A DNA stretch of 53,711 nucleotides. Origin: a virus. Below the pieces are notes generated by a model. It was given only the letters and a program-made list of their open reading frames with translations. It was not told where the DNA came from and ran no database searches. Location of the stretch: the IMG/VR virus record IMGVR_UViG_3300014050_000031, positions 1 through 53,711 of that record. One strand, written 5' to 3'. Made by a program: the position numbers and the translations under genes. Below are positions 3,127 through 50,286 of the stretch, piece after piece. Position 1 is the first letter of the stretch; the number at the start of each line of letters is the position of its first letter.

Positions 3127-4545
3127 ATGCTTTACGATCCATTCAGGTTCTATGATACACCGCCTCCTGCTCCAACATACTTTGGGGGGACATTGCCTAC
3201 CGTTAATGTCAGGCCTTCCTATCCGGGCGACTATGTTGCAAATCGTGTAAGACAGGGTGGTGGTAGGTTTTTCAACACACTTGGATCGTTCCTTGGCCAA
3301 CCGCAAAGAGATGCCGTTGAGTTAGTGACGGGGGTTGAACAAACGCCTTCCGAAGCTATGGGTATTGAAAACCCATACGGAGCATTTGCGGTTGATGCTA
3401 TTCTTGACCCGCTAAATGTCGGCCCGACATTTCTTGCTAGGAATATGTTGAGAAATCCGTTTAGGGTTTTTAACTCTTATGGCAGAAACCAGGTTCCATT
3501 AAACAGCATTGGGGTGGCATCCGACGTACCAGCATCGTATGGAAAAGCTAATTACTCGCCAGAAGAATTGCGGGAGGCTATTGAAATGGCTAATAGAGAT
3601 TTGAAAGCCTTTGGAGAGTCGCCATATAATATAGAGAAAGTAAGGGCAATTAGGGAAGAGGAACTTCGTAAACACTTAAACAGCAGGAGTTATAAGTCAT
3701 TCATTGATAATTACAGAAACAGTAGCGCTATACCTGTTAAAAATCTTGTTTCTTTTCTTAGGAGTCAGGAGAAGTTGTATGTGCCAATGAATCTCTATCC
3801 GTTTAATGGCCCGCTAATTGTTGATGATGCCAAAAAGTTTGCTGATAGATTTTATTCTCAAAAAATGACGTCCCCAAACATTCAAGTCATGAGCACTACA
3901 CATCCGTATGCTGTCGCTAATGAAGATGTTTCAGGCGTGTATTTCCCTGGCAAAAAAAGAGTTAGTCTTTTCCCAAAAAATGAAAGAATTTATGACCCTA
4001 AAAATAGATTAGGTGGCGATGAGGCATATGTTGTTGATAAACGGTCAAAATCACTACAAGATTTGTACTTAACAATGATACATGAGGGAACGCACGGAAG
4101 AGCTTTTAGATTAGGAGTTACCGATACTGAGAGAAAAATATTGTACGACGCATGGAAAGATATTATTGGTGACGATGCGATTAAACTTTCAAAATCTAAT
4201 CCAATGGGTAAACAACCTCTTAAAGGCAAACCCCGATGGTGGAGTGTAAAAGATGGTCCTAGGATACCACAATTTGAAACAGAGGCGCTTCAGGGTGAGT
4301 TAAGGATGCTTTTAAATGATAAAGATGGAAGCAGGATTTACAGCGAAAAGGATATACCGGAAATAAAGAAGGCTATCAAAAGACTTGCGAGTAAGGGAAT
4401 GGTGTATTTGAGCGATATTAAAAAATCCCCGGAAATCATTGAAAAAATAGATTTAAAGCCATTAATTAAGTCTTTGAATAAAATAGGGTTTGCAACAACG
4501 GCCCCATACGTTGCCACTAAATTACCGGACAATAATAAAGAATAA
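3127..4545 (+). CDS. Hypothetical protein with HExxH metallopeptidase-like motif
   Basis: This 472-residue protein has a Pro/Tyr-rich N-terminus, and the middle is mostly charged and helical. At residues 319-323 it has HEGTH, which fits the zinc-binding HExxH pattern, within LTMIHEGTHGRAFRLG, the sort of helix expected in such enzymes. A third ligand is not obvious; E and D residues follow in the next 80 positions. It lies between the small basic proteins and the second membrane-protein gene, two bases after the previous stop. It could be a virion-borne or lysis-stage peptidase, or only a structural relative. The motif is seen; the activity is inferred. Confidence 0.6.
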   Translation: MLYDPFRFYDTPPPAPTYFGGTLPTVNVRPSYPGDYVANRVRQGGGRFFNTLGSFLGQPQRDAVELVTGVEQTPSEAMGIENPYGAFAVDAILDPLNVGPTFLARNMLRNPFRVFNSYGRNQVPLNSIGVASDVPASYGKANYSPEELREAIEMANRDLKAFGESPYNIEKVRAIREEELRKHLNSRSYKSFIDNYRNSSAIPVKNLVSFLRSQEKLYVPMNLYPFNGPLIVDDAKKFADRFYSQKMTSPNIQVMSTTHPYAVANEDVSGVYFPGKKRVSLFPKNERIYDPKNRLGGDEAYVVDKRSKSLQDLYLTMIHEGTHGRAFRLGVTDTERKILYDAWKDIIGDDAIKLSKSNPMGKQPLKGKPRWWSVKDGPRIPQFETEALQGELRMLLNDKDGSRIYSEKDIPEIKKAIKRLASKGMVYLSDIKKSPEIIEKIDLKPLIKSLNKIGFATTAPYVATKLPDNNKE

Positions 4546-34200: not shown

Positions 34201-34557
34201 TCACTCCTCGTCTTCCCCAAAGACGTCGTCCAAGTCGTGGTCAATCTCTATGATCGCCCCAACCATCGTGAGCAACTTATCGCAAAACTCCTCGTCCTCC
34301 CAATCAATCATCCCAAAAAAGCACACAAAACCCAACTCATCAAAGTTTGACACCGTGAAAATCTTGTTTTTCTCATCGTAGTCCCTGATTTCGCCAAATT
34401 GAAAAATCGTGTACCGGTCATCTTCGTGCTTTATGACCTTGTGCGTAGCACTCCGCCAATACCCGGGACCATCCGCTTCGTCGCTTATCCAGGACGTATT
34501 CACGTACTCAAAGCCGTACGGCTCTAAAACCTTTCCTTCTATTGATTCATCTTTCAT
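34201..34557 (-). CDS. Acidic hypothetical protein
   Basis: This 118-residue protein has a strongly acidic end (DHDLDDVFGEDEE) and a Trp/Tyr/Phe-rich core (GPGYWRSATHKVIKHEDDRY). It overlaps the next upstream gene by 11 bases. It resembles the small acidic proteins of unknown function that many phages carry; no family is identified. Confidence 0.6.
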   Translation of the reverse strand: MKDESIEGKVLEPYGFEYVNTSWISDEADGPGYWRSATHKVIKHEDDRYTIFQFGEIRDYDEKNKIFTVSNFDELGFVCFFGMIDWEDEEFCDKLLTMVGAIIEIDHDLDDVFGEDEE

Positions 34558-34801: not shown

Positions 34802-35254
34802 CTAAGGCTCAATAGTTTCGTTTGATCGCACCAAAGAGACCGTGTTTGAAACCAAATACCTCCCCCTATCGCCAACAAAAGCCATGTTGTGGTTAATCAA
34901 CCACTCCTTCCCGGACTTTACCATCCAACCCTCGCTAACCAACCCTTTAACCGCCTTGTGGTACGAAGATCGATCGGGCCTCTTCCCCACAATAGGTTCC
35001 ACCCACTCACAATACCCCTGAAACTCCACCTGTACCACCCTGGAACCACTCTTCAGCCTAGTCATAACGTACATAGCCAAGGCAATCTCCGATGGCTTTA
35101 GCCTAATTAAAGCCTCCAACCCGGGAATAAACATCTTTACAAACCTCGCCCTGTCCCATGCGGACCTCCCTAAAACACTAATACGCTCATCCGAAAGGAA
35201 TTCCTCCCCCGTCTGAGTATCCACAAGCTGCCTCTTCCTTAAAAACTTTGTCAT
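34802..35254 (-). CDS. RepL-like winged-helix replication or control protein
   Basis: The 150-residue protein opens with LRKRQLVDTQTGEEF, like the 'N-terminal tag of a converted substrate' of RepL-type plasmid initiators, followed by helices RFVKMFIPGLEALIRLKPSE and a winged helix at about residues 75-113 (DRSSYHKAVKGLVSEGWMVK). The INHNMAFVGDRGRY stretch (120-133) resembles the INP-type end of RepL domains. It starts 39 bases from a cluster of CCACATTT half-sites and faces the 1.7 kb hexamer-rich region, which suits an initiator or autoregulator. It could also be a phage repressor of the same fold. Confidence 0.6.
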   Translation of the reverse strand: MTKFLRKRQLVDTQTGEEFLSDERISVLGRSAWDRARFVKMFIPGLEALIRLKPSEIALAMYVMTRLKSGSRVVQVEFQGYCEWVEPIVGKRPDRSSYHKAVKGLVSEGWMVKSGKEWLINHNMAFVGDRGRYLVSNTVSLVRSNETIEP

Positions 35255-35292: not shown

Positions 35293-35338
35293 AAATGTGG
35301 TGATTTTGGCCACATTTTTGGTGAATTTGGCCACATTG
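35293..35338. repeat. Half-site cluster upstream of the RepL-like gene
   Basis: AAATGTGG at 35293-35300 faces CCACATTT at 35310-35317, giving an inverted repeat with a 9-base spacer. CCACATTG at 35331-35338 repeats the second half in the same direction, 21 bases further, two turns of the helix. The longer shared core is TTTGGCCACATT. This is the usual form of an iteron or autoregulatory operator for the adjacent gene. Confidence 0.65.
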
Positions 35339-36546
35339 TGAATTATATGTCAATAAAAAACGCTGTTTTTGATATCGCTAGGGCACTTTTTTAGTACCCC
35401 CCCAATTTCCCTCTATATAATAATATAGATATAGCACTCGCTATTCAAATAGGGATCTCTGTGGATGGAATTTTGGAAATTGTATGGATAGGATTTTGGG
35501 CTTTACCCCCAATTTTTCTAGTTCAGTTTCAAAAATAAAAGTCATCCCCCCCTATTCGTAACATTGAATAAACAATCCATTAGTCAATCTATTGTTACAA
35601 CAATATATTTAGTTTTGCTCTACTACATTTAGTGCATCATTTGTTACAACAATGAACACAATTAGGCAATGTTATAACAATGATTGATTTTTATCATAAA
35701 AAAAATGATGACAAAAAAACAATGATGTGTTATATAACAATGCTATTGCTCGTCTAATGATACGACAAAATTGTAATCAATGTTATAAATAATTGCTCTA
35801 ATAAATCTTTTGGAATATAAAGTGGTTATGTTATAACATATTGTTTATCATAGTATTGTTACAACACATTGTTTTTCTAATGACTAAAAATATATCAAAA
35901 CTTATTTTTATTTTTGAGCAAAAATAATGATGACTAACTCGCATTGTTATAACACATTATTTTGGTTAGCAATGTTATGAAAAAGGAAAATCAATAATCT
36001 TGGTAAGTGGTTATGTTATAACAAAACCAATGATTGCACAGGATGTCTTGTTTTGTAACACAAGTTTTATCTAATTCGTGTAACACATCGTTTATCTAAT
36101 TGTGTAACACATCTTCTTATAACACATCTCTTACCAAATCCATATTGTTTTACAAATGGTTGTGTTATAACAAAACTACTTTGTACTGAGTACAGGTGTA
36201 TTCATAACACATTGTGATTTTTCATCTCATATTTTTATTGGAAAAATAGGATTACTCATAACACATCATTTTTGTAACAAATGATTTTATGTATGTGGTT
36301 GAATTTTATGTTGTTATAACAAAACGATACACCCCACCAAAACCTCTAATGCAAAACAATGTGTTACGATACACCCAAAAATTACTAAAAGTTTTTATTA
36401 CTACACTATTCTATAACATATTACACAATTATTAGTGCTTGTAGGTAATACGGAAAAAATAAATCATTGTTGTAACAACAAATTCACTATCGTGGGCATA
36501 TAGCAAATCCAGGGTTTTGCTACATTTCATAACACATTCTACAAAA

Positions 36547-36564
36547 AGTCTACTATAGTATACC
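36547..36564. promoter_or_regulatory. 18-bp near-palindrome, copy 1
   Basis: AGTCTACTATAGTATACC differs from the consensus AGTCTACTATAGTATACT in the last base. The consensus is an inverted repeat around TATA with one mismatched pair. It lies upstream of the promoter at 36711. Confidence 0.75.
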
Positions 36565-36602
36565 TTTGTTGATAGGCAATTTTCGTAACACATTCCACAT
36601 AA

Positions 36603-36620
36603 AGTCTACTATAGTATACT
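36603..36620. promoter_or_regulatory. 18-bp near-palindrome, copy 2
   Basis: This is a perfect copy of the consensus, 56 bases after copy 1, a spacing of about five helical turns. Both are upstream of the 36711 promoter and could bind one regulator in phase. Confidence 0.8.
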
Positions 36621-36710
36621 TTTAAAATCAAAAATAGGAATCCATAACACATCTCACATCGTGTCGGTAAACTGTCAACCAAAATACCGCTTTATTGCAT
36701 TGTAGGGCTA

Positions 36711-36741
36711 TTTGTAATTTGAGGTTTCTTTTGTATCTTTG
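36711..36741 (+). promoter_or_regulatory. Bacteroidota-type promoter before the 275-aa gene
   Basis: TTTG (36711-36714), 19 bases, then TATCTTTG (36734-36741), an exact match to the Bacteroidota -33/-7 consensus TTTG and TAnnTTTG. GCTATTTGT at the -33 box is shared with the promoters at 38077 and 39850. The start of transcription would be near 36748, leaving a 220-base leader with seven hexamers before the 275-aa gene. Confidence 0.75.
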
Positions 36742-36967
36742 GATATCGTTAGTAAAGGTCGCAGTGATGCGTAATGTGTTACAACGATTCGTTCTTTGAC
36801 ATATTGAAAAAACTAAATAACACAATGTGAGTAATGTTCTCGCAAAAAAATTGTGTTATACTTTTTCGGATTGGCTTTGGGTATGCATTCCCATAACAAT
36901 GCATAAATCGGATAAGTGCAAATCCTCATAACATTGCACAAAAACATAACACAAAATATATATTGTT

Positions 36968-37795
36968 ATGAATAAGTCAGTTTTGAATGCCGTTGCTTTG
37001 TTTGTTGCTCTTCCTTCGGTTCGCAACATCGTGAAATTTTCTGATGTTAAGAAATTGCTTAGTGAATTGCGTAACATTAGACACAATCGGTTCCTAAAAT
37101 TAGTGGAATTATCTAAATTGTGTTACAATTTTCGTGTTTACTTTAATTCTGCTGAATGCAAAGAGTTAAGGAAGAAAAAGAAAATTGATGTTACGATGGA
37201 GGATGTAATCAGTGTTACATTCAATATGGGCAAAGCCTATTTTTACCGACTTGCTACAATGGGGAAATATGTTACGAACAACCCCGAAAAAGTAGGTCAA
37301 TTCATAACATTGAATGAAGCTTCGCCTACAGAATATGTTATGGATGCTACTACTTTTAACGATTTTTGTAGTGGTAAAACAAAGGACAAAAAAGAACCCG
37401 AACCAAAGGATGAAGATAATTCATCTGATGTTACGGATGCTTTAGAATCTCACGATAGGCAATTAGAACAAGAGCAAGAAGCAAGAGAGAATGAAGCCAA
37501 AGAGGTGGTGTTTAATATGTTATACAAAGGTCAAGGCATAACAATATCCAAACATAACAAAGGTGGATATGTTACCGAACTACATAACATTGAACCTACC
37601 GATTTGAAAGAGTTCTTAAAAAATGTAATTAATGTTATGCCTACAATCCTGTTGGATGCAAAAAGGCATCAGCCATTTGGTGTAACACATTACTTAGACA
37701 CAAAGTCCAAGAAGTGGATTACAGACTATGGTAACATTAAATTAACAAAACCTCAGCGTGAAATCGTAACACAAAGCATAAAAAATCACGCATAA
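36968..37795 (+). CDS. Candidate DNA-binding protein of the hexamer locus
   Basis: The 275-residue protein has no family I can name surely. The N-terminal half is basic and helical; residues 75-115 (EDVISVTFNMGKAYFYRLAT, then NPEKVGQFI) look like a helix-turn-helix of the type seen in small replication or control proteins of Bacteroidota mobile elements. Residues 135-180 are an acidic linker. The C-terminal 90 residues form a compact alpha/beta region (GITISKHNKGGYVTELHN). The coding sequence itself holds 17 RTAACA/TGTTAY hexamers, and the start codon lies inside another. A terminator follows at once. I infer it binds these sites; this is untested. Confidence 0.75.
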   Translation: MNKSVLNAVALFVALPSVRNIVKFSDVKKLLSELRNIRHNRFLKLVELSKLCYNFRVYFNSAECKELRKKKKIDVTMEDVISVTFNMGKAYFYRLATMGKYVTNNPEKVGQFITLNEASPTEYVMDATTFNDFCSGKTKDKKEPEPKDEDNSSDVTDALESHDRQLEQEQEARENEAKEVVFNMLYKGQGITISKHNKGGYVTELHNIEPTDLKEFLKNVINVMPTILLDAKRHQPFGVTHYLDTKSKKWITDYGNIKLTKPQREIVTQSIKNHA

Positions 37796-37805
37796 TGTGT
37801 TACAG

Positions 37806-37835
37806 ACCCCTTGCTTTCGCAAGGGGTTTTTTTTT
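37806..37835 (+). terminator. Intrinsic terminator after the 275-aa gene
   Basis: A perfect 9-bp stem (ACCCCTTGC / GCAAGGGGT) with a TTTC loop is followed by nine Ts. It lies 10 bases after the stop, so the 275-aa gene is a single-gene transcription unit. Confidence 0.93.
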
Positions 37836-37993
37836 GCCCATACTTTCGTAACACAAGACTAACTAATTGCCTTCATAACACATTGTTGTACGCCTGGACT
37901 TTGGTGCAAAACTCGATCGAGTACGAAAAAAAAGTCACTATCACTATCATATGCGATGCGGTGCGATGCAGCGTAACAAAACAAAACCGGGAA

Positions 37994-48555: not shown

Positions 48556-50286
48556 ATGAAATACGGATCAGTTTGCTCAGGCATTGAAGCGGCCTCGGTC
48601 GCTTGGCACAACCTCGGGTGGGAGCCGCAATGGTTCTCAGAGATTGAACAATTCCCTTCGGATGTGCTGAAACACCGGTTCCCAACGGTTCCTAACTTGG
48701 GAGATATGACAACCATTAACCAAAACCCAATCGCAGATGAACGACCAATTGACCTTCTCGTGGGGGGAACTCCCTGCCAATCCTTCTCCGTCGCAGGACT
48801 TCGCAAAGGTCTTGCTGACCCACGAGGGAACCTCATGCTTACCTTTCTTTCAATCGCTGATAAACTCCGTCCCAAGTGGATCGTCTGGGAAAATGTCCCC
48901 GGTGTATTGTCGTCCAACGGAGGAAAAGATTTTGGCACCTTCCTCGGGGCGTTGGGCGAACTCGGGTATGGGTTCGCATACAGAGTTCTTGACGCTCAAC
49001 ACTTCGGAGTCGCCCAAAGACGCAGAAGGGTGTTTGTTGTCGGATGGCTTGGAGACTGGAGAGCTGCCGCAGCGGTTCTATTTGAGCGAGAAAGCCTGCA
49101 AGGGAATCCTAAACCGAGCAGAAAAAAGAGGGAAGAAGTTACCACCGATGCTCAAGGAAGCGTTGGAGAGGCAAGTAGTTGGTGGGATGGAAGCCAAGTC
49201 GCAGGAACCTTAACCAAGCAGAATGCGAATGGCGCACAACGGATGCCGGACAAGGATAATTTTGGAGCCATACTTCAGCCAACCATCATTGACCGAGTTG
49301 CCCAACCGATACCAGTACTTGCCGGGCAACACCCAAATAAGGAAGTCGGCATTGATGTATGCCCGACACTACCAGCAGCAATGGGAATGGGTGGAGGTCA
49401 CACTCCATTAGTCCCTCATCCCGTTGCCCAACCGATAGCATTTCAGTCGGTGGATTATGGAGGAGATGCAACGGTGGAAAAAAGTCCTACATTGAGGGCG
49501 CACGACCCAATGGCAGTTGCCCAACCGATAGGAATAAATGGAAATATAGCAGGAACTATTGACGCAAATTATTTCAAGGGATGTGGCTCTGCTAATTTTG
49601 GGGAAAGAGATGTTGTTGCCCAACCGATAGCCTTTGAACCAGGTAAGATGCAAAGGCTTGGGTATGGGTGTTCGGATAATGGCACATCCCCAACATTAAG
49701 GTCAGAGCCTGGCGATAATCAATTAGCCGTTGCCCAACCGATAGCCGTGGACACCTACAATTACACCACCAACGACCACACCACGCAAACCATTCGCTCA
49801 CAATCAGACACCGAGCATATTGGAGCCGTGTTGCAACCCATTGCCGTGGATGTTTACAATCAATCCATTGATGGGCAAACAAGTGCGACAATCACCGAAG
49901 CGGTTGGAGGAACAAATACTTCGGGGCCAAAAGTTATGCAACCGATACCAATTAATACAATGACAATGCTTGGAAGGCCGTCTGATGATAAAAATCCACG
50001 TATGGGACTTGGAATTGGAAATCCGGGAGAGCCACAAAACACGCTTACAAAAACGCACAGTCACGCAGTTGCTACCGGTATGGCCATCCGAAGGCTGACC
50101 CCCAAGGAATGCGAACGCTTGCAGGGATTCCCGGATGATTGGACAAAGATTCCATACCGAAACAAGGAAGCCGACCAATGCCCCGATGGGCCAAGGTACA
50201 AGGCTTGCGGTAACTCAATGGCAGTACCGGTGATGCGGTGGATTGGTCAGCGCATTCAACTAATAGAAAAAATGATGAACAAATAA
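48556..50286 (+). CDS. DNA (cytosine-5) methyltransferase with repeat-rich target region
   Basis: This 576-residue protein has the C5 methyltransferase motifs: I (GSVCSGIEAASVAW, residues 4-17), IV with catalytic Cys74 (GGTPCQSFSVAG), VI (Glu112-Asn113-Val114), VIII (Gln154, RRRR) and, after a long insert, IX/X (RRLTPKECERLQGFP and GNSMAVP near the end). The insert of about 250 residues between VIII and IX is the target-recognition region and holds seven VAQPI-like units. It would methylate cytosine in host or phage DNA, often to evade restriction. No restriction partner is seen nearby. It starts behind a terminator, so it has its own promoter. Confidence 0.93.
   Translation: MKYGSVCSGIEAASVAWHNLGWEPQWFSEIEQFPSDVLKHRFPTVPNLGDMTTINQNPIADERPIDLLVGGTPCQSFSVAGLRKGLADPRGNLMLTFLSIADKLRPKWIVWENVPGVLSSNGGKDFGTFLGALGELGYGFAYRVLDAQHFGVAQRRRRVFVVGWLGDWRAAAAVLFERESLQGNPKPSRKKREEVTTDAQGSVGEASSWWDGSQVAGTLTKQNANGAQRMPDKDNFGAILQPTIIDRVAQPIPVLAGQHPNKEVGIDVCPTLPAAMGMGGGHTPLVPHPVAQPIAFQSVDYGGDATVEKSPTLRAHDPMAVAQPIGINGNIAGTIDANYFKGCGSANFGERDVVAQPIAFEPGKMQRLGYGCSDNGTSPTLRSEPGDNQLAVAQPIAVDTYNYTTNDHTTQTIRSQSDTEHIGAVLQPIAVDVYNQSIDGQTSATITEAVGGTNTSGPKVMQPIPINTMTMLGRPSDDKNPRMGLGIGNPGEPQNTLTKTHSHAVATGMAIRRLTPKECERLQGFPDDWTKIPYRNKEADQCPDGPRYKACGNSMAVPVMRWIGQRIQLIEKMMNK
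49297..49743 (+). repeat. Five in-frame copies of a 15-base repeat in the methyltransferase
   Basis: GTTGCCCAACCGATA occurs at 49297, 49423, 49516, 49615 and 49729, with gaps of 126, 93, 99 and 114 bases, all multiples of three. Each encodes VAQPI. Two diverged copies follow (near 49829 and 49934). The units between them vary in sequence. Confidence 0.9.

Follow-up and report, generated by a model that had tools for sequence, protein, structure and literature searches.

Genes and features around the hexamer array

The window (the whole 53.7-kb virus record analysed here) contains a 2.4-kb stretch crowded with the hexamer RTAACA/TGTTAY, which fills the leader of a gene for a 275-aa protein, here called the companion, continues through its coding sequence and ends beyond it. 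On the other side of the leader is a divergently oriented gene for a small RepL-like protein. The features referred to below are:

34802-35254, minus strand: gene for a RepL-like winged-helix protein of 150 aa, divergent neighbour of the array (assigned from plasmid similarity and a structural model)
35295-35337, no strand assigned: pair of GTGG/CCAC-type dyads immediately 5′ of the start codon of the RepL-like gene (sequence comparison)
35558-37978, no strand assigned: array of 61 RTAACA/TGTTAY hexamers (counts and shuffles), conserved in records L001-L005 and L124
35558-36969, no strand assigned: intergenic part of the array, 40 hexamers with dyads, GC 0.31-0.34, hexamer columns conserved
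35569-35582, plus strand: box TAAACAATCCATTA on the RepL side of the array, at its edge; every lineage that spans this site keeps it
36548-36619, no strand assigned: two copies (36548 and 36604) of the near-palindrome GTCTACTATAGTATAC, also found near other early promoters
36711-36741, plus strand: promoter of Bacteroidota type (TTTG-N19-TATCTTTG) for the 275-aa gene, within the longest hexamer-free gap (36650-36776)
36968-37795, plus strand: gene for the 275-aa protein (an A-type companion, see below; predicted helix-turn-helix at residues 77-104), with 17 in-gene hexamers
37796-37978, no strand assigned: last 4 hexamers of the array, downstream of the gene and surrounding a terminator-like hairpin (sequence)

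The structural genes of the window occupy 5.6-35 kb of its minus strand. The virus is a freshwater one with Bacteroidota-type bacterial hosts and looks distantly related to crAssphage: its TerL shares 20-25% identity with the TerL proteins of many Crassvirales, and there are PHROG matches for terminase and portal. A 3001-aa protein, considered as a possible equivalent of the giant virion RNA polymerase of Crassvirales, has no PHROG match. The p-crAssphage genome has two repL copies, and the mode of replication, including how crAss-like phages start it, is stated to be unknown (PMC10136315). The window also encodes a cytosine-C5 DNA methyltransferase of 576 aa (48556-50286), whose counterpart in G002, a 61.8-kb record, has 456 aa.

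The 275-aa protein has a predicted helix-turn-helix (helices at residues 77-85 and 89-104), and the longest stretch that stays invariant between family members 37% identical is its recognition-type helix, KAYFYRLATMG. Across lineages the companion proteins (275-314 aa) have a similar layout, with a helical N-terminal half, the predicted helix-turn-helix, a charged linker and a C-terminal domain. They fall into an A type (the window, L124, and L136) and a B type (L106, L118, L127, and L131), between which homology is not claimed, since a profile-profile comparison gives only a weak co-linear hit (probability 2%) and no confident alignment. Neither the 275-aa protein nor the ~290-aa proteins of more distant relatives found anything above noise in Pfam, PHROGs, NCBIfam, or PDB-sequence searches, or any match by tblastn in phage and plasmid collections; a sub-threshold HTH_3 match occurs in a B-type counterpart, and the HTH_3 family search returned nothing over its cut-off. 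The model of the 275-aa protein, which is only partly confident, gave no usable fold match (best Foldseek E 0.5; best VIA-align Z 3.8, a value not to be trusted for a helical model).

Sequence comparison and modelling both mark the RepL-like protein as related to the plasmid RepL initiators. This is a relation rather than family membership, because PF05732 finds no phage protein directly: a profile search of the phage records gave no hit to the RepL-like proteins at the curated cut-off. A member of the family aligns along 88-90% of its length, at 22-30% identity, with proteins from small plasmids, of which one is annotated RepL, and 3 of 4 plasmid homologues tested match PF05732 themselves, just below the cut-off. 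Residues 36-129 of the window's model match winged helices (best Z 8.4), headed by origin-recognition-complex (Orc-type) and Fur/Zur-type folds. The protein shares with the PF05732 RepL initiators and crAssphage repL a small winged-helix form, and it resembles plasmid RepL-type proteins weakly along its whole length; it differs in falling below the family thresholds. A scan of bacterial genomes found no relative of it, and a tree of the RepL-like proteins did not resolve the branches that matter. The GTGG/CCAC dyads at its start codon are, from their sequence, possible autoregulatory operators of its gene.

Hexamer density and conservation

The sequence-only reading from which this work began had noticed some 60 hexamers around and inside one gene, about 40 of them in the gene-free region, 17 in the coding sequence and four downstream. 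The exact count is 61, and the split agrees to the number: 40 start 5′ of the 275-aa gene (the last, at 36964, overlaps the start codon), 17 lie wholly within the 828-bp coding sequence, and 4 lie 3′ of it. The in-gene copies, which had been described as lying on both strands and in different frames, do occur on both strands and occupy all three frames. The remaining 51.3 kb of the window holds 35 hexamers, or 0.68 per kb vs. 25.2 per kb in the array, a 37-fold difference; this whole-window count had been set beforehand as a check, and nothing like the array's density recurs elsewhere. The abrupt ends reported earlier are also there, with no hexamer between 34.5 kb and 35558 or between 37978 and about 40 kb. 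The gene-free part contains dyads, as had been said, several of them overlapping (TGTTATAACA) and one TGTTATATAACA. The spacing of sites in the window is irregular, with a median of about 40 bp. In an unbiased scan of all 6-mers, ATAACA, GTGTTA, ATGTTA, and GTAACA rank at the top in the window; an Rfam search found no match in the array region.

The earlier expectation that composition would yield only a few copies agrees with dinucleotide shuffles of the array stretch, which give a mean of 8.1 and a maximum of 19 (1000 shuffles) vs. the 61 observed. Synonymous-codon shuffles of the 275-aa gene give 7.7 ± 2.0, with a maximum of 14 (2000 shuffles), vs. 17 observed. Because the exact counts, both kinds of shuffle and the 6-mer scan agree, the observation is confirmed. 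Chance, base composition or codon bias could draw on the AT-richness of the region (the window is nowhere richer in AT than at the array, GC 0.31-0.36 vs. 0.35-0.53 elsewhere) and on the roughly 8 in-gene copies that synonymous shuffling alone already yields, but is refuted, its probability practically nil, by counts above every shuffle and by the hexamer-specific conservation described next; moreover the peak is 10-12 hexamers per 2.4 kb in crAss001 and in the scanned half of phi14:2, both of which are richer in AT.

The array is kept in five records (L001-L005) with protein identities of 94-95%. The hexamers are under selection beyond protein coding: when the window is aligned with four of these five records, 4 of 226 hexamer columns between genes are variable, compared with 138 of 1189 other columns, and within the 275-aa gene variation affects 1 of 34 third codon positions in hexamers vs. 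95 of 242 outside them (Fisher p = 4e-6). The suggestion that codon choice has been bent to keep the hexamers is thus borne out, with an in-gene count exceeding every synonymous shuffle and third positions protected.

Presence of the repeats beside homologous genes in relatives, likewise checked, holds at all homologous loci covering the place. The record L124 encodes a 37%-identical homologue of the 275-aa protein and a terminase 79% identical to the window's; it has 16 in-gene hexamers, vs. 5.6 ± 1.7 in its own codon shuffles, and about 30 more outside the gene. Just 5 of the window's 17 in-gene sites share an alignment column with an L124 site. Since few positions are shared yet the number is similar, the sites turn over, and it is the density itself that is held.

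A cassette shared across lineages

In all lineages covering the place, of which about five are independent and all are metagenomic, the array lies between the RepL-like gene and the divergent companion gene. The RepL-like proteins (143-159 aa) are 42-57% identical to the window's in all lineages sharing the hexamer word, and the extended site consensus over all of them is about RTAACACAAnATACAC, often as a dyad TGTTATAACA or TGTTATATAACA. In more distant relatives the same word forms a short array of 8-21 sites between genes, next to a helix-turn-helix-type gene for a ~290-aa protein that cannot be aligned. With an A-type companion the array is long (45 or more sites) and runs through the gene; with a B-type companion it has 21 or fewer sites, 0-1 of them in the gene. 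Site spacing is lineage-specific, with medians of 49 bp in L124 and 36 bp in L106. Each of the five records checked has the box TAAACAATCCATTA once, and a scan of 2.9 million viral contigs for this box followed by TGTTA found dense hexamers (six or more in the 500 bases following the box) confined to this clade.

The array is inherited together with the cassette. In L106 and L116, TerL is 98-99% identical to the window's, and terminase trees group these contigs with the window; their DNA similarity to it ends at 34518, before the RepL-like gene. Beyond this point the RepL-like protein is about 44% identical to the window's, the array is different, and the companion gene of L106 is B-type. From sequence, the region looks to have been exchanged as a unit, in contigs that take in only the near one of its two breakpoints.

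Other repeats occur at these loci. L127 and L118 have a palindrome, ATAATGCATTAT, upstream of and just inside the B-type companion start (about 5240 and 5405 in L127), and GTCCA/TGGAC dyads in the companion leader; both could be operators of another regulator. Conserved inverted repeats (GTCAGC..GCTGAC, GTGCCTTTTAAGGCAC, AAACGCTGTTTTTGATAGCG) lie between the RepL-like gene and the array at 2380-2900 of L124 and at the equivalent places in L127, L131, and L118, and are mostly missing from the window's shorter spacer. Around the early promoters of the window there are six copies of GTCTACTATAGTATAC (36548, 36604, 37995, 38147, 38438, and 39909; one mismatched), near three Bacteroidota-type promoters (36711, 38077, and 39850), with five exact copies kept in G002. 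This near-palindrome is probably separate from the hexamer array, and its placement suggests that it is probably an operator or promoter element of an early-gene regulator.

Replication, partition and other readings

The array stretch very probably serves a DNA-binding protein as its landing place. Its kind is known, a protein-binding word array beside an initiator-type gene; its length, its passage through a gene and terminator and its constraint on codons are untypical. The reading put first, at a probability of about 0.4, takes it as the cis-acting site of a plasmid-type (RepL) replication or maintenance cassette of this crAss-like clade, with the 275-aa protein coating the hexamers. The cassette would have three parts, always in the same order: a gene for the winged-helix RepL-like initiator, the hexamers and the box at their edge, and the divergent gene for the helix-turn-helix-type protein. 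This protein would be produced early from the host-type promoter at 36711-36741 and would bind the hexamers singly or as dyads, covering the AT-rich leader with a long nucleoprotein array that could mark and open an origin, or set how often the RepL-like protein starts replication, the phage DnaB-type helicase being loaded next. In the lineage of the window and in L124 the array would have spread across the gene and beyond its terminator, and the companion protein is therefore proposed to coat its own gene too.

The word, its extended consensus and its placement between the RepL-like and companion genes are common to all lineages, in favour of this reading. The selection on the hexamers and their density, the RepL relation of the neighbour, the AT-richness of the array and the different initiator and array beside a near-identical TerL in L106 and L116 speak for it as well. 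It is also favoured by G002, whose DnaB-type helicase is 79% identical to the one in G001 (a 71-kb record) and among whose larger ORFs no other initiator was found; judging by gene order, G002 should lack only about 3 kb of its genome. G002 has, in addition, a sigma-factor-like gene (L225, 10626-11216) and genes of the Erf annealing and exonuclease VIII types.

Several findings weigh on the other side. GC skew, uninformative here, has neither an extreme nor a switch at the array, whether in the window or in G001 and G002; PF05732 misses the phage proteins; the different palindrome ATAATGCATTAT stands at the companion start in L127 and L118; and G001 has another initiator candidate. This last is a replisome-organizer/primosomal-type gene (L221, 3885-4589) with 11-bp-spaced TTGAA repeats inside it at 4194-4273, of which tblastn finds no counterpart in the window or G002. 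From its sequence it is a lambda-O-like origin candidate and could be the lytic origin; with a second origin candidate present, the hexamer cassette of G001 may be a second replicon.

Iteron plasmid origins (RepA, RepE, and pi) offer the nearest comparison. They too have a repeated short word beside an initiator-type gene, an AT-rich leader, a mixture of single sites and dyads, and cassette-like inheritance, and the first two of these marks are both found at the array. The iterons are few, however, and classically spaced at roughly 20 bp, whereas the phage has 61 sites in 2.4 kb, with the wider median spacing of 36-49 bp; its array crosses the companion gene and terminator, and its initiator-type gene is RepL-like rather than RepA-type. 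The passage through a gene has its own precedents, in that the origins of lambda O and P1 repL lie inside the gene, lambda having four clustered iterons in the middle of O. As there, the coding sequence of the gene in question contains binding-type sites. Unlike lambda O, the phage has 17 sites scattered through the gene and 44 outside it, reaching 1.4 kb upstream, and the 275-aa protein has no O-like fold and no O- or DnaD-like sequence family match, so that it does not resemble a lambda-O-type replisome organizer. The remark that partition and iteron arrays rarely extend through a gene accordingly stands for some 60 spaced sites over 2.4 kb, and not for in-gene origins as such.

Taken together, its sequence and its predicted structure suggest that the 275-aa protein is probably the hexamer binder. 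The sequence-only reading had it binding its own gene and leader: selected binding-type sites are indeed tied to both, but the identity of the binder is less secure, since in other lineages the same word adjoins an unalignable protein, and the RepL-like winged helix, which that reading does not mention, is a second DNA-binding-type protein at the array and the better conserved of the two. A somewhat unlikely alternative keeps the site and its function and makes the hexamers iterons for the RepL-like protein, leaving the 275-aa protein as a regulator or accessory. The constancy of the hexamer, across companion types that cannot be aligned and RepL-like proteins that are conserved, fits such a binder equally well; so do L127 and L131, which have near-identical RepL-like proteins and 30%-identical companions and share the word and both array edges. 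The RepL-like gene has, however, its own, different dyads (GTGG/CCAC) at its start, array size tracks companion type, and the extension of the array covers the companion gene, not repL. Array variants in L127, L131, and L118 were also considered for deciding the binder, and followed neither protein cleanly.

As a further possibility, here judged unlikely, the array might be a centromere-like partition or cohesion site, with the 275-aa protein coating about 2.4 kb and so keeping or clustering a plasmid-like phage genome. The sopC site of the F plasmid, with 43-bp repeats coated by SopB, is the obvious parallel: as in F sopC and other ParB centromeres, there are many dyad-containing sites as well as single ones, some 40-50 bp apart, with the potential for a large nucleoprotein complex, and the wide and regular spacing in L124 (49 bp) and L106 (36 bp) recalls it. 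Selection on density, not exact position, would suit such a site, as would the integrase family search, which found none over cut-off, and the ParA/ParG operon near a RepL-like homologue in two plasmids. Against it, no ParA-type ATPase was found in the window, G001 or G002 (records that may be incomplete), the 275-aa protein has no ParB match in sequence or in the fold of its partly confident model, and the sites in the window are irregular and run into coding sequence. Crassvirales are, besides, considered strictly lytic (PMC10136315).

A role in transcription, as a silencing or early/late switch nucleoprotein between divergent gene blocks that would also autoregulate the 275-aa gene, is rather improbable. 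The array does lie at the junction of the minus-strand structural and plus-strand early blocks, and the promoter of the 275-aa gene falls in its largest hexamer-free gap, with a similar gap over the promoter region of L124; by itself, though, the window's gap falls short of significance (random placement gives p about 0.1). The sites far exceed regulatory need, most being 0.1-1.2 kb from any promoter and many within coding sequence, and it is a different element, GTCTACTATAGTATAC, that clusters at the early promoters. A packaging (pac) recognition site is very unlikely: the terminase large subunit gene is about 4 kb away and some pac sites do lie within genes, but in L106 and L116 the array and its neighbour differ beside a nearly unchanged terminase, so that the array does not track the packaging enzyme.

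Of the functions first proposed, replication start or partition still lead, with the plasmid-type replication or maintenance site preferred here. A stronger version, which we would lean against, is that a DNA-binding protein of the phage lines its gene, together with the leader and the terminator, by means of some 60 selected, codon-constraining sites, the extended nucleoprotein filament serving as origin and/or centromere of a plasmid-like genome in a crAss relative. A search of the open-access literature found no description of such an array, nor of such an organisation in phages or plasmids; the array is real, selected and, apparently, so far undescribed.

Its in-gene part is a clear case of one stretch of DNA serving two codes, with turnover of sites at constant density. 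In this clade, moreover, the initiator-type gene, the DNA-binding-type companion and a defined site sit together in one compact locus, which makes the start of crAss-like replication testable by ordinary plasmid and binding assays.
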